From: an uncultured Eubacteriales bacterium
Lineage (GTDB): Bacteria > Bacillota > Clostridia > Lachnospirales > Lachnospiraceae
Assembly (NCBI GenBank): GCA_900557175.1
Contig: USSL01000042.1
Coordinates: 1-10,237 of the forward strand
DNA length: 10,237 nucleotides
Direction of reading: 5' to 3'
Under the pieces are notes generated by a model. The model saw only the letters and a list, made by a program, of their open reading frames with translations, was not told where the DNA came from and did no database searches. Both the position numbers and the translations under genes were made by a program. Shown here one piece after another: positions 3,771 to 6,192 of this stretch (the first letter of the stretch is position 1; each line of letters opens with the position of its first letter).

Positions 3771-4943
3771 ATGTACAGATTATGGCAGAAAATTGCAGGA
3801 TACAGCCGATGCCGCATTTTGGGAGCCGATGCGGGAAGACTTCTGATGCTTTGTAAGCGCCGCCGGCTCTATTTGTGGGATATATGCCCATGTGACGGCG
3901 GATTGGAAGCTTTTGTACTGACGCCGTATATCCGGGATTTGTCAGAAACTGCGCTTGTGTGTGGTGCTTGTGTGACAGTTCTGGACGCTTATGGGCTCCC
4001 GGTCATTTTAAAAAAAGCGGCCGTCCACAAATTCTTCTTTTTTGGACTTTTATCGGCAGTGCTCATTATTTTTGCCCTGTCACGTTACATATGGGCTGTG
4101 GAAGTCTGCGGCAATTCTTTTTACACCGATGAAATGCTCTCTGCATATCTTGCAGAAATCGGTGCCGGTGCGGGAAGCTTAAAGAGGCATATTGTGCCCT
4201 CCGAGGTGGAAGAAAATATAAGACTTAAATATCCGCGTATTTCATGGGTGTCGGCAAGAATTACGGGTACAAAGCTGATGCTTGATATTGAGGAGGGACA
4301 GCCGGATATGAAGATGCCAGATGCAGACACGGGTGATTTATGCGCGCCTTATTCGGGAACCGTTGTTTCTATGATCACAAGGGCAGGGACGCCGCTTGTA
4401 AAAAAGGGGGATATTGTAAAAAAAGGTGATGTGCTCGTTGCGGCTGGGATGGATATTTGCGGTGATGATGGGACAGTCGTAAAGACAGTGCCTGCGGCGG
4501 CGGACGCGGATATCGTACTTCGGGTAAGGTTTGCTGTTGACAGGCGCTATGACAGACATTATATAAAAAAAAATGACGCCGGCGAAGCAAAAAAGAGTTA
4601 TGCCATTCATCTGTTCGGGCATACGTTTACTGTGCCTGATATGTCCCGCAGTGCGATGTCAGATTATGATGAAACAGTGGAATATAAGGTATTCCGTCTG
4701 ACAGAGGATTTTTATCTGCCTTTTGCCGTGACGGTGACAAGCCGTAAGCCATATACACAGACGCCGGCTTTGTATACGGCGGAAGAAATCAGAACAATAG
4801 CGTCGCGGGACTTTGAAAGAAAGCTTGAGACAATGAGAAATGACGGCGCAAAACTGATTGAAAATCATACGGATTTTGAAGTGACAAAAGACGACTTGTT
4901 ACTGACTGGTTATGTCATTATGGAAATGCCGTGCGGGACTTAA
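3771..4943 (+). CDS. yqfD: Sporulation protein YqfD
   Basis: A 390-residue single-pass membrane protein of the YqfD family (B. subtilis YqfD about 398 residues). ATG 3771 has GGAGGT (3757-3762) 8 bases upstream. Order: a soluble N-terminal region with LWDICPCDGG (about 35-44); one strong membrane segment FFFFGLLSAVLIIFALS (about 87-104); the conserved RISWVSARITGTKLMLDIEE (about 156-175); then GTPLVKKGDIVKKGDVLVAAG (about 205-225), whose repeated VKKGD resembles the hairpin of a barrel-sandwich (lipoyl/HlyD-like) fold, with no sign that it is lipoylated; and a C-terminal extracytoplasmic domain. The family is widespread in endospore formers and was described as sigma-E dependent in B. subtilis; its molecular role is not settled. 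It is probably co-transcribed with yqfC. It ends 37 bases before the palindromic element. Confidence 0.92.
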   Translation: MYRLWQKIAGYSRCRILGADAGRLLMLCKRRRLYLWDICPCDGGLEAFVLTPYIRDLSETALVCGACVTVLDAYGLPVILKKAAVHKFFFFGLLSAVLIIFALSRYIWAVEVCGNSFYTDEMLSAYLAEIGAGAGSLKRHIVPSEVEENIRLKYPRISWVSARITGTKLMLDIEEGQPDMKMPDADTGDLCAPYSGTVVSMITRAGTPLVKKGDIVKKGDVLVAAGMDICGDDGTVVKTVPAAADADIVLRVRFAVDRRYDRHYIKKNDAGEAKKSYAIHLFGHTFTVPDMSRSAMSDYDETVEYKVFRLTEDFYLPFAVTVTSRKPYTQTPALYTAEEIRTIASRDFERKLETMRNDGAKLIENHTDFEVTKDDLLLTGYVIMEMPCGT

Positions 4944-4960
4944 ATTTATGTATAAGCCGA

Positions 4961-4989
4961 TGGAAAATAAAGCGAAATGATGGTATAAT
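4961..4989 (+). promoter_or_regulatory. Possible promoter at the left edge of the palindromic element
   Basis: TGGAAA (4961-4966) is a weak -35 (4 of 6), followed by a 17-base spacer and TATAAT (4984-4989) in the extended form TGGTATAAT. The -10 is also the left closing arm of the palindromic element. A transcript from here would start near 4996, inside the first hairpin, so the hairpin could not form in that RNA. This speaks against it being the leader promoter for an RNA device. Confidence 0.4.
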
Positions 4990-5051
4990 GATTGCACAGA
5001 GTGCAATCAGCCCGGTTTTACCGGGCACTCCGCCTTGCGGAGTTTATACCA
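4981..5051. repeat. Palindromic multi-hairpin element (four-way junction), unclassified
   Basis: A 71-base block closed by TGGTATAA (4981-4988) pairing with TTATACCA (5044-5051). Inside are three perfect hairpins with 3-base loops: 4990-5008 (8 bp, GATTGCAC/GTGCAATC, loop AGA), 5010-5026 (7 bp, GCCCGGT/ACCGGGC, loop TTT) and 5027-5043 (7 bp, ACTCCGC/GCGGAGT, loop CTT). Only two bases (4989, 5009) are unpaired outside the loops. This is dense, perfect and symmetric, as in a REP/MITE-like extragenic element or a structured RNA. It is not a tRNA: the loops are three bases, with no anticodon or T-loop. I do not recognise it as a known riboswitch. Confidence 0.8.
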
Positions 5052-5067
5052 GCAATCCACGGCTTGC

Positions 5068-5097
5068 AAAGCAAATGCCCTTCGGGCGCTTTCTTTA
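5068..5097 (+). terminator. Weak terminator-like hairpin downstream of yqfD
   Basis: A bulged 9-bp hairpin (AAAGC + GCCC / GGGC + GCTTT, loop TTC) is followed by a short pyrimidine-rich tail (TTTCTTT, 5090-5096). This could end a yqfC-yqfD transcript before the kinase gene. The T-tract is interrupted and the stem is bulged, so this is only a possibility. Confidence 0.3.
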
Positions 5098-5106
5098 CTG
5101 CGCGCG

Positions 5107-5115
5107 TGGTATAAT
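5107..5115 (+). promoter_or_regulatory. Extended -10 promoter for the PfkB kinase gene
   Basis: TGGTATAAT is a perfect extended -10 (TGnTATAAT). Transcription would start near 5122, 16 bases before the AGGAG ribosome binding site (5138-5142), which fits well. No good -35 is present at the usual spacing. It coincides with the right-hand copy of the palindromic element's arm, so the element may supply this gene's promoter. Confidence 0.6.
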
Positions 5116-5150
5116 AGATTTGTATAATGAATATGACAGGAGAAATAATT

Positions 5151-6086
5151 ATGGTTTATACAGTGACTTTTAATCCGTCGTTAGATTACATTGTTTCAGT
5201 CGGCAATTTTGAACCGGGTATGACAAACAGAACGACAGCAGAGCAGATCTTTGCCGGGGGCAAGGGCATTAATGTTTCTGTTGTATTAAATAATCTCGGT
5301 ATAAAAAGTACGGCGCTCGGCTTTACTGCCGGTTTTACCGGGGAAGAAATTGAAAAAAAAGTAAAAAAGATTGGTTTAGACAGTGATTTTATCCGTGTAA
5401 AGCACGGTTTTTCAAGAATTAATGTAAAATTAAAGGATTATGACGGCACTGAAATTAACGGCCGGGGACCGGACATCAGTGCAGAGGAAACGGCGGCGCT
5501 TTTAGAGAAGCTTGATGTTTTAACTGCCGGGGATGTGCTTGTACTTGCGGGAAGTATTCCTGACAGTCTTCCAAATGATATGTACAGTATAATTTTAGAA
5601 AGACTTCAGGACAGAGGTGTTTTATTTGTTGTAGATGCAACAAAGGATTTACTTTTAAATGCTCTTAAATATCATCCGTTTCTTATAAAGCCGAATCATC
5701 ATGAGCTTGGGGAGATTTTTGGCATCAGGCTTCAGACAAAGGAAGCTGTCGTGCCTTATGCAAAAAAGCTTTTGAAAGCAGGTGCAAAAAATGTGCTCGT
5801 TTCGATGGCGGGTGACGGGGCAGTGTTCCTTTCGGAAAAAGGTGATATCTGTATGCTTGAAGCGCCAGAGGGAAAGGTGATGAATGCTGTCGGGGCAGGA
5901 GATTCTATGGTGGCCGGTTTCGTTGCAGGATGGCTTGAGAAAAAGGATACGGCACACGCCTTTAAAATGAGTGTGGCTGCGGGAAGCGCAAGCGCATTTT
6001 CGGAGTTTTTGGCGACAAGGCAGGAAATAGAAACTCTTTACAGCCGCCTTTACGAAAATAAATATATCTGTTATAATGAGCGTTGA
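5151..6086 (+). CDS. PfkB-family sugar-phosphate kinase, 1-phosphofructokinase (FruK/LacC type)
   Basis: A 311-residue cytoplasmic kinase of the ribokinase/PfkB superfamily. It probably phosphorylates fructose 1-phosphate to fructose 1,6-bisphosphate or a related hexose phosphate. Motifs: TFNPSLDY near the N-terminus (FruK/LacC-type TxNPxxD); GGKGIN at 36-41 (PfkB signature 1 region); VLAGSIP (about 132-138); KPNHHELGEIFG from 180; NAVGAGDSMVAGF with GAGD at 248-251 and Asp251 as the catalytic base. ATG 5151 is chosen because AGGAG (5138-5142) sits 8 bases before it; the in-frame ATGs at 5127 and 5133 lie upstream of that site. FruK genes commonly sit with a DeoR/FruR regulator and a fructose PTS transporter. 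Neither is here, so the substrate (fructose-1-P or tagatose-6-P) is open. It interrupts the yqfD-phoH neighbourhood with its own promoter and terminator. Confidence 0.9.
   Translation: MVYTVTFNPSLDYIVSVGNFEPGMTNRTTAEQIFAGGKGINVSVVLNNLGIKSTALGFTAGFTGEEIEKKVKKIGLDSDFIRVKHGFSRINVKLKDYDGTEINGRGPDISAEETAALLEKLDVLTAGDVLVLAGSIPDSLPNDMYSIILERLQDRGVLFVVDATKDLLLNALKYHPFLIKPNHHELGEIFGIRLQTKEAVVPYAKKLLKAGAKNVLVSMAGDGAVFLSEKGDICMLEAPEGKVMNAVGAGDSMVAGFVAGWLEKKDTAHAFKMSVAAGSASAFSEFLATRQEIETLYSRLYENKYICYNER
6049..6077 (+). promoter_or_regulatory. Possible promoter in the last codons of the kinase gene
   Basis: TTTACG (6049-6054, 4 of 6), a 17-base spacer and TATAAT (6072-6077) preceded by TGT (extended -10). 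It would start transcription near 6084, inside the terminator stem. Such a transcript would lack the outer base pairs of the hairpin and might read through towards phoH. It may instead be chance in AT-rich codons. Confidence 0.4.
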
Positions 6087-6115
6087 CGGATGTAAAATCC
6101 GTCAGCGCTATTTTT
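6079..6115 (+). terminator. Intrinsic terminator overlapping the end of the kinase gene
   Basis: AGCGTTGACGGAT (6079-6091) pairs with ATCCGTCAGCGCT (6097-6109). The stem is 13 bp with one G-T pair and a five-base loop, followed by A and five T (6111-6115). The kinase stop codon (6084-6086) is inside the left arm. Confidence 0.85.
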
Positions 6116-6176
6116 GCCGCATCAAAAGGCTTTGTCCTGTGTGGTAAAAGGCGCGATATGAAATTCTATTTTGAAA

Positions 6177-6192
6177 AGGAGAGCATGTTTTG
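6177..6192 (+). promoter_or_regulatory. Ribosome binding site fixing a TTG start for phoH, with a nested mini-ORF
   Basis: AGGAG (6177-6181) lies 8 bases before TTG 6190, the best start for PhoH. An out-of-frame ATG (6185) only 3 bases after the site encodes just Met-Phe-Trp-stop (6185-6196), overlapping the TTG. It is probably too close to the ribosome binding site to be used well, but it is a candidate translational modulator. Confidence 0.6.

Follow-up and report, generated by a model that had tools for sequence, protein, structure and literature searches.

Genomic setting and predicted fold

The window, that is, the whole stretch of 10,237 nucleotides analysed here, comes from an uncultured Eubacteriales bacterium (contig USSL01000042.1). 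Between the stop codon of yqfD (4943) and the start of a forward-strand 1-phosphofructokinase-family gene (5151..6086; TIGR03828, 333.5 bits against a cut-off of 292), it contains a 71-bp block (4981-5051) whose predicted fold is a perfect four-way junction with stems of 8, 9, 7 and 7 bp, three triloops and zero unpaired bases at the junction. On the same forward strand, the 5' closing arm TGGTATAA (4981..4988) forms 8 bp with the 3' closing arm TTATACCA (5044..5051), enclosing hairpin 1 (4989..5009; 9 bp, loop AGA), hairpin 2 (5010..5026; 7 bp, loop TTT) and hairpin 3 (5027..5043; 7 bp, loop CTT). An earlier note on this DNA had reported these arms and the three hairpins with three-base loops, all of which are real. 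It gave the hairpins as 8, 7 and 7 bp, which is correct for the second and third; hairpin 1 has 9 bp, because T4989 and A5009, counted in that note as two unpaired bases outside the loops, can pair together. The predicted fold therefore leaves nothing unpaired apart from the nine bases of the loops. The claim that such a density of stems is above chance also stands: the folding energy of the block in its 83-nt context is -43.2 kcal/mol, compared with -18.25 (sd 3.08) for shuffles, none of 200 folding as low, and this context has the lowest energy in the window in an 83-nt scan with a step of 10 bases. No Rfam 15 family reached its gathering threshold on the element in the window and 16 relative loci, and ARAGORN called no tRNA on it, the sole tRNA found (L039, 191-262) lying outside the element; identity with an Rfam family or with a tRNA was accordingly rejected. 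An 80-aa mechanical open reading frame (4931-5173) spans the block and overlaps both neighbouring genes, and nothing marks it as a gene.

The block makes up the left side of a 126-bp unit (4990..5115, forward strand), running from GATTGC through a right-hand TATAAT, which lies between two copies of TGGTATAAT and is read here as inserted DNA. The bounds of this unit derive from the direct-repeat spacing of 126, from tandem relatives and from a 132-bp presence/absence difference in a relative. The left TGGTATAAT (4981..4989) is an extended -10 motif with TATAAT at 4984-4989 and, under the insertion reading, would be the original target promoter; 17 bp before this -10 lies a -35-like hexamer, TGGAAA (4961..4966), assigned by consensus match only, with 10 of 12 positions agreeing when the -10 is included. 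The right half of the unit (5052..5106), which full-length relatives conserve, is an imperfect hairpin (CCACG...CGTGG) and is followed by the right TGGTATAAT (5107..5115), a candidate -10 of the kinase gene situated 35 bp ahead of its start codon. The TTATACCA arm is complementary to both the left and the right TGGTATAA, at a distance of 55 nt from each. As tandem units meet at a TGGTATAAT-like motif, the window can be described as containing a complete unit followed by the initial nine bases of the next. The limits 4981-5051 proposed earlier thus delimit the junction, whereas the repeated unit runs to the second TGGTATAAT; the same reading had overlooked both the extended -10 in the closing arm and the position of the copies directly behind TATAAT.

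Two observations concern the surroundings. At 6079-6115 of the window, a hairpin of about 13 bp is followed by a T run, probably a terminator behind the kinase gene. In genome G134, a locus (L013) comparable to window positions 4944-6189 carries an acetyltransferase-like gene (by eye) between yqfD and phoH in place of the element and kinase.

Related copies and covariation

Related genomes were reached through PhoH loci and then through YqfD, the closest relative reached being G134 (YqfD identity 47%). A covariance model (R1) built from the single block matched 24 times, in 7 of 397 genomes. A second model built from 20 copies (R2) gave additional matches in these seven genomes and, when run against 195 relatives of genome G303, matched seven at E-values up to 1e-5, two of which had previously been found. 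In total, related copies occupy 35 further places in 12 genomes, or 36 with the window (family A); three weak R2 matches (G315:C3:14480, G315:C8:85347 and G153:C5:75914) stand outside this set. The suggestion in the earlier note of a dispersed intergenic palindromic element is borne out by these places and their compensatory changes: the covariance search of relatives that it had proposed as a check found copies, and their stems covary, so that the outcome it had named as refuting (copies nowhere else, freely decaying stems) was not observed. Copy number is low, from one to about eight per genome, and a high-copy REP was rejected on this ground. Family A copies begin GGTATAAT-GATTGC and finish ATTATACC or TGGTATAAT. 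The full unit of the window measures 126 bp and that of G413 132 bp, tandem units are spaced 125-143 bp, and some places (e.g. L050) hold the four-way part alone, ending at or near a -10-like sequence.

Among 20 distinct copies (20 of 27 listed, tandem repeats and one decayed copy being excluded), standard pairs occupy 94.5% of 587 cells, both-sided changes occur in 18 of 30 pairs and the covariation score was reached by none of 500 shuffles; when the partners are slid by one to three columns, pairing falls to 28-41% of cells. For 40 distinct copies fitted to the model, the corresponding values are 96.0% of 1143 cells and 19 of 29 pairs, figures that favour well-paired copies both through the choice of places (33 out of 36, without L058, L063 and L074, of which two are decayed) and through the pair count, from which 14 reverse-strand and two identical rows were also excluded. 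Sequence is mostly kept in the closing arm and in hairpin 1, which in this respect is the most conserved of the family's hairpins; hairpins 2 and 3 covary. Wobble pairs are scarce (24 of 1143 cells in the 40 copies), and the excess of G-U over A-C cells (24 to 12, p=0.065) weakly hints at strand-specific folding of the coding strand. The earlier argument from three-base loops to selection on the DNA fits both the triloops and the few wobble pairs, which are compatible with it and no proof of it. Within genomes, pairwise differences are larger in loops than in stems (0.313 vs 0.035 in G407; 0.463 vs 0.072 in G134), a contrast that is biased because the covariance model needs stems. In these two genomes, the triloops vary among dispersed copies while the stems hardly do, and loops are mostly common within one tandem array.

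The exact patterns of family A and of the second family described below each gave 0 stretches in viral contigs, and one family A copy had no match among plasmids. The unbiased pattern GGTATAAT(40-70)ATTATACC matched 30 of 397 genomes, against 15 for the reversed control; as many of its matches are unstructured AT-rich stretches, they were kept out of the evidence.

Position relative to promoters and genes

A second palindrome, family B, starts with a hairpin of the form GGTATAAT-AACCAC-NNN-GTGGTT-ATTATACC, which in full copies is followed by two more hairpins, the last ending CCATGG-TATAAT. Its 17 hairpins are spread over five genomes and, by eye, show compensatory changes; the pattern also matched 8 other sites, and the reversed control none. 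Positions were counted over 50 places, namely the 36 of family A and 14 of the 17 family B hairpins, two tandem second copies and the copy at fprA in G409 being left out. The hexamer immediately left of the copies is TATAAT in 48 of the 50, with TATACT and CATAAT (L067) once each; the triplet ahead of the left TATAAT is TGG in 41, with the variants TGA, GGG and CGG, and -35-like hexamers (at least 4/6) precede the -10 in 23 places, where shuffled flanks give an expectation of 10.7. With these three features, the target looks like a promoter -10 box. At the right ends of full units, TGG predominates. Variant left flanks combined with mostly constant right ends imply that the element itself bears the right TATAAT or that a duplication spans six bases at most: TATAAT is present at both ends, so a six-base duplication is compatible, and a nine-base target duplication was rejected on account of the variation to the left. 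The unit starts GATTGCAC, ends GCGCACGTGGTATAAT or alike and, compared by eye, has no terminal inverted repeats.

A same-strand gene start with a ribosome-binding-like motif lies within 330 bp downstream at 45 of the 50 places (family A 32/36, family B 13/14) and on the other side at 15. At 384 control TATAAT sites the counts are 117 downstream and 124 on the other side, and the excess of downstream starts over the control rate has a binomial p of about 2e-18. Among the five misses, the gene is farther off at L042, a long array intervenes at L045, the start lies inside a decayed copy at L063, and no nearby same-strand gene was seen at L047 and L209. L042 and L047, from different genomes, have similar sequence (...GTxCGCG...AATGAGCCA...) right after the right TATAAT, which could not be named.

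The genes downstream of family A are mostly unrelated in function. For 33 of them (32 scanned proteins and the window kinase, with the proteins of L045, L047 and L063 excluded), eight are of DNA-processing types, an observation made post hoc and without a background count: UvrD-type twice, AddB, MutS domain V, RecD2, JetA, a DUF4011 protein with an AAA_11 domain and a metallophosphatase read by eye as SbcD.

Occupied, empty and differently filled sites

Orthologous loci were located in 11 genomes of the G303 genus with a composite of downstream gene starts; the genus of G153 consists of one genome, so the composite search is uninformative there. At a response-regulator promoter, a 132-bp unit is present in G413 and absent in G409 and G410. 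Around it, identity between G413 and G409 is 99.3% over 1328 bp on the left and 98.3% over 1819 bp on the right; G410 is 96.2% identical to G413 over 1819 bp on the right, with only 62 bp aligned on the left (91.9%). The join is exact, reading ...CCA-TGGTATAAT-ATAACC without the unit and ...CCA-TGGTATAAT-[unit ending TGGTATAAT]-ATAACC with it.

Other promoters hold different palindromes in sister species. The fprA promoter is empty in G413 (TGT-TATAAT) and carries family A in G303, G489 and G407. G409 has a single family B copy there and G410 a tandem pair; in each of these five genomes the palindrome follows that same TATAAT immediately. At murA, G407 has family A, a third palindrome occurs in both G303 and G489, and nothing recognisable follows the -10 in G409, G410 and G413. 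At NAPRT, G303 has a complete family A copy and G489 a partial one; by eye, none was seen in the other nine genomes. The mutS2 locus is mixed, with family A in G410, another palindrome in G409, a B-like start in G413 and an A-like fragment in G407, and at the jetA promoter of G413 (L084) the left part of A seems to be joined to the right part of B. A DUF5711 gene carries family A in both G153 and G407.

Further palindromes were seen in passing. In G409, one starting TATAATATGAACACTTGG lies behind the -10 of both jetA and mutS2 (L085, L104). In three genomes (L189, L190 and L203, 1501-1527), near-identical hairpins GGTATAATGATAGCAACACATTATACC lie ahead of a gene that by eye is recombinase-like, and in three genomes without A and B a hairpin GGTATAATAAGTAGAGTTACTTATTATACC lies upstream of an mreB-type gene (by eye; L193, L194 and L195, 1501-1530).

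Candidate enzymes

Y1 transposase genes (PF01797) were found in 11 of 19 genomes searched; they are present in several carriers, and this search linked none of them to the element. Within the G303 genus, long Y1 proteins (open frames of 258-315 aa) occur in six of six carriers of A or B and in none of five non-carriers (Fisher p 0.002, tree ignored). They also occur in G315, G153 and G391, and as a fragment only in G134, and G212, G078, G030 and G380 have no long Y1 match. Short IS200-like proteins are found in five of the six G303-genus carriers (not G489), and in G134 and G212. Three of six long proteins tested pass the 80-bit cut-off of NF047646 (REP-associated tyrosine transposase, RAYT), the other three scoring 67.1-78.8 bits. 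The RAYT loci are flanked by other palindromes (e.g. GGGGACGTAAC...GTTACGTCCC), and R2 run over 12 of them gave one weak match of 17.9 bits; RAYT was thus rejected as a demonstrated mobiliser. By eye, a RAYT-like gene appears to occupy one conserved place, between a kbl-like gene and an aminopeptidase-like one, or next to the latter (L182, L171, L177, L180, L178, L176, L181, L172), with GGGGACGTAAC-type palindromes adjoining. At L137 and L138 (1501-1563; G489 and G303), a palindrome of this type is nested within arms GGTATAATGCAAT...ATTGCATTATACC.

Relation to known elements

Elements of the IS200/IS605 group lack terminal inverted repeats, have hairpins near their ends and insert 3' of a short motif, leaving it intact, with a similar motif at the right end. 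The present element likewise lies 3' of a fixed motif that is kept (TATAAT in 48/50; the exact G413/G409 join), is without terminal inverted repeats and has hairpins near its ends and the motif at both. It differs in that its hairpin begins at the motif itself and not some bases inside, in the absence of tnpA from the unit and in having no enzyme linked to it. Integron attC cassettes combine a folded single-strand site, a repeated core and arrays. These features recur here, at many scattered promoters and without cargo or platform.

Correia elements have a TA target and long inverted repeats. They contain promoter sequences and often lie upstream of genes, as described in PMC10969869, and the present element resembles these and other promoter-bearing MITEs in being short, non-autonomous, upstream of genes and equipped with sigma-70-like promoter sequences (PMC10969869). 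In contrast to them, it lacks terminal inverted repeats, its insertion point is itself the -10 box, and several unrelated palindromes share that point. REPs and REPINs are also non-coding intergenic palindromes, with conserved ends and a spacer whose pairing is kept by compensatory changes (PMC3116915), and genomes carrying them often hold a RAYT gene (PMC3116915, PMC3733652 and PMC2817692). REPs carry GTAG or CGTC tags (PMC3733652). The present element is low-copy, has neither tag, is fixed behind a -10 with TATAAT at its far end, and the RAYT loci seen here carry palindromes other than it. The REP-type assignment considered in the earlier note is therefore not upheld. In open-licence literature, including those listed among the papers with TGGTATAAT, no description was found of this element or of palindromes targeting the -10 box. 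On the best reading, the element belongs among the small non-autonomous palindromic mobile elements, with a putative -10 target rule.

Probable insertion behind the -10 box and its alternatives

In family A, covarying copies lie directly behind TATAAT and ahead of genes on the same strand, and two relatives lack one of these copies at just that point. Exact presence and absence in a near-identical relative, coupled with the location of copies behind TATAAT, makes a mobile element that inserts into promoters likely. We therefore favour, with a probability of roughly 60%, the reading that the 126-bp non-coding palindromic unit is a mobile element inserted exactly behind the kinase -10, to which it brought a second TGGTATAAT. 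At the response-regulator site, insertion is preferred to loss on grounds of parsimony, since both relatives examined lack the copy and the carrier is nearly identical to its nearest relative in the flanks; by analogy, the window's own copy would also be an insertion. Weighing against this reading are the five of 50 places that miss the gene-start count, the partial or mixed palindromes at mutS2 and jetA, and the search for an enzyme, in which the REP-type transposase genes had other palindromes beside them.

The strongest competitor, though an improbable one, is a host regulatory element, in which folded DNA or read-through RNA controls genes and is selected gene by gene, absences representing losses, e.g. 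by slippage between the two copies of TGGTATAAT; the observed presence/absence could itself reflect precise loss between direct repeats. Copies do lie upstream of genes, fprA carries family A in three genomes and the DUF5711 gene in two, and low copy number together with the eight DNA-processing genes among 33 might point to regulation. Stems that are near-constant within a genome while loops vary are likewise unlike a decaying selfish copy, yet a stem-based search favours such copies. Against regulation, the downstream genes are mostly unrelated, the same promoter holds different palindromes in sister species, the distribution is patchy (R1 in 7/397 genomes) with tandem arrays, and the left arm overlaps the -10, so that a transcript from there would lack it.

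Less probable again is a REPIN-like element moved by the RAYT of several carrier genomes. REPINs similarly have conserved ends around a covarying spacer (PMC3116915), long Y1 proteins track carriers in the G303 genus, and half of those tested pass the RAYT cut-off. However, neither tag is present, the palindromes beside RAYT genes are other ones, with a single weak R2 match in 12 loci, and long Y1 is missing from G212, G078, G030 and G380, the first three of which R2 matched. An integron-like cassette, in which a tyrosine recombinase would act on folded single-strand sites with TGGTATAAT as exchange core, would account for the core at both ends, its inverted copy inside the fold and the tandem arrays; the many scattered promoters, the lack of a cargo gene in the units and the lack of a common platform make it very improbable. 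A weak terminator-like site at 5076-5088 speaks for an ordinary terminator, and this reading or a chance palindrome is negligibly probable given that none of 200 shuffles folds as well, that covariation extends across genomes and that the copies precede genes; a chance palindrome was excluded by the shuffles, copies and covariation together.

If the unit is indeed an inserting element, it would land directly behind the -10 box, at about -7/-6, and its target would be the melted promoter. In promoters, the DNA at about -7/-6 lies within the transcription bubble and is single-stranded; a junction at this point inside the open complex could be reached by a single-strand enzyme. The element may move as a folded single strand and be handled in trans by a strand-transferring (HUH/Y1-like) enzyme cutting next to TATAAT, with the internal ATTATACC possibly pairing with the TATAAT at either end and so defining both cuts. 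The far-end TATAAT would regenerate the promoter, so that the gene keeps its start signal, and tandem copies would arise locally from the regenerated target. A more tentative proposal, which we hold to be rather less likely than the insertion itself, is that several families form a promoter-homing palindromic class, inserting as folded single strands into the bubble behind the -10 and restoring the promoter with a -10 of their own.

Promoters are usually damaged when a mobile element lands in them. An element that settles behind the -10 and supplies its own could be nearly harmless and could stack in arrays, and such insertion would rewire 5' leaders across a genome. The existence of several palindromes obeying one rule in sister species makes the idea directly testable and, if confirmed, the -10 target rule would merit a class of its own. 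Should the bubble prove to be the target, bacteria would offer a case in which transcription initiation directs insertion. If the promoter-homing class is real, the DNA that RNA polymerase melts would be the landing site and promoters would offer these elements a safe and re-usable niche.
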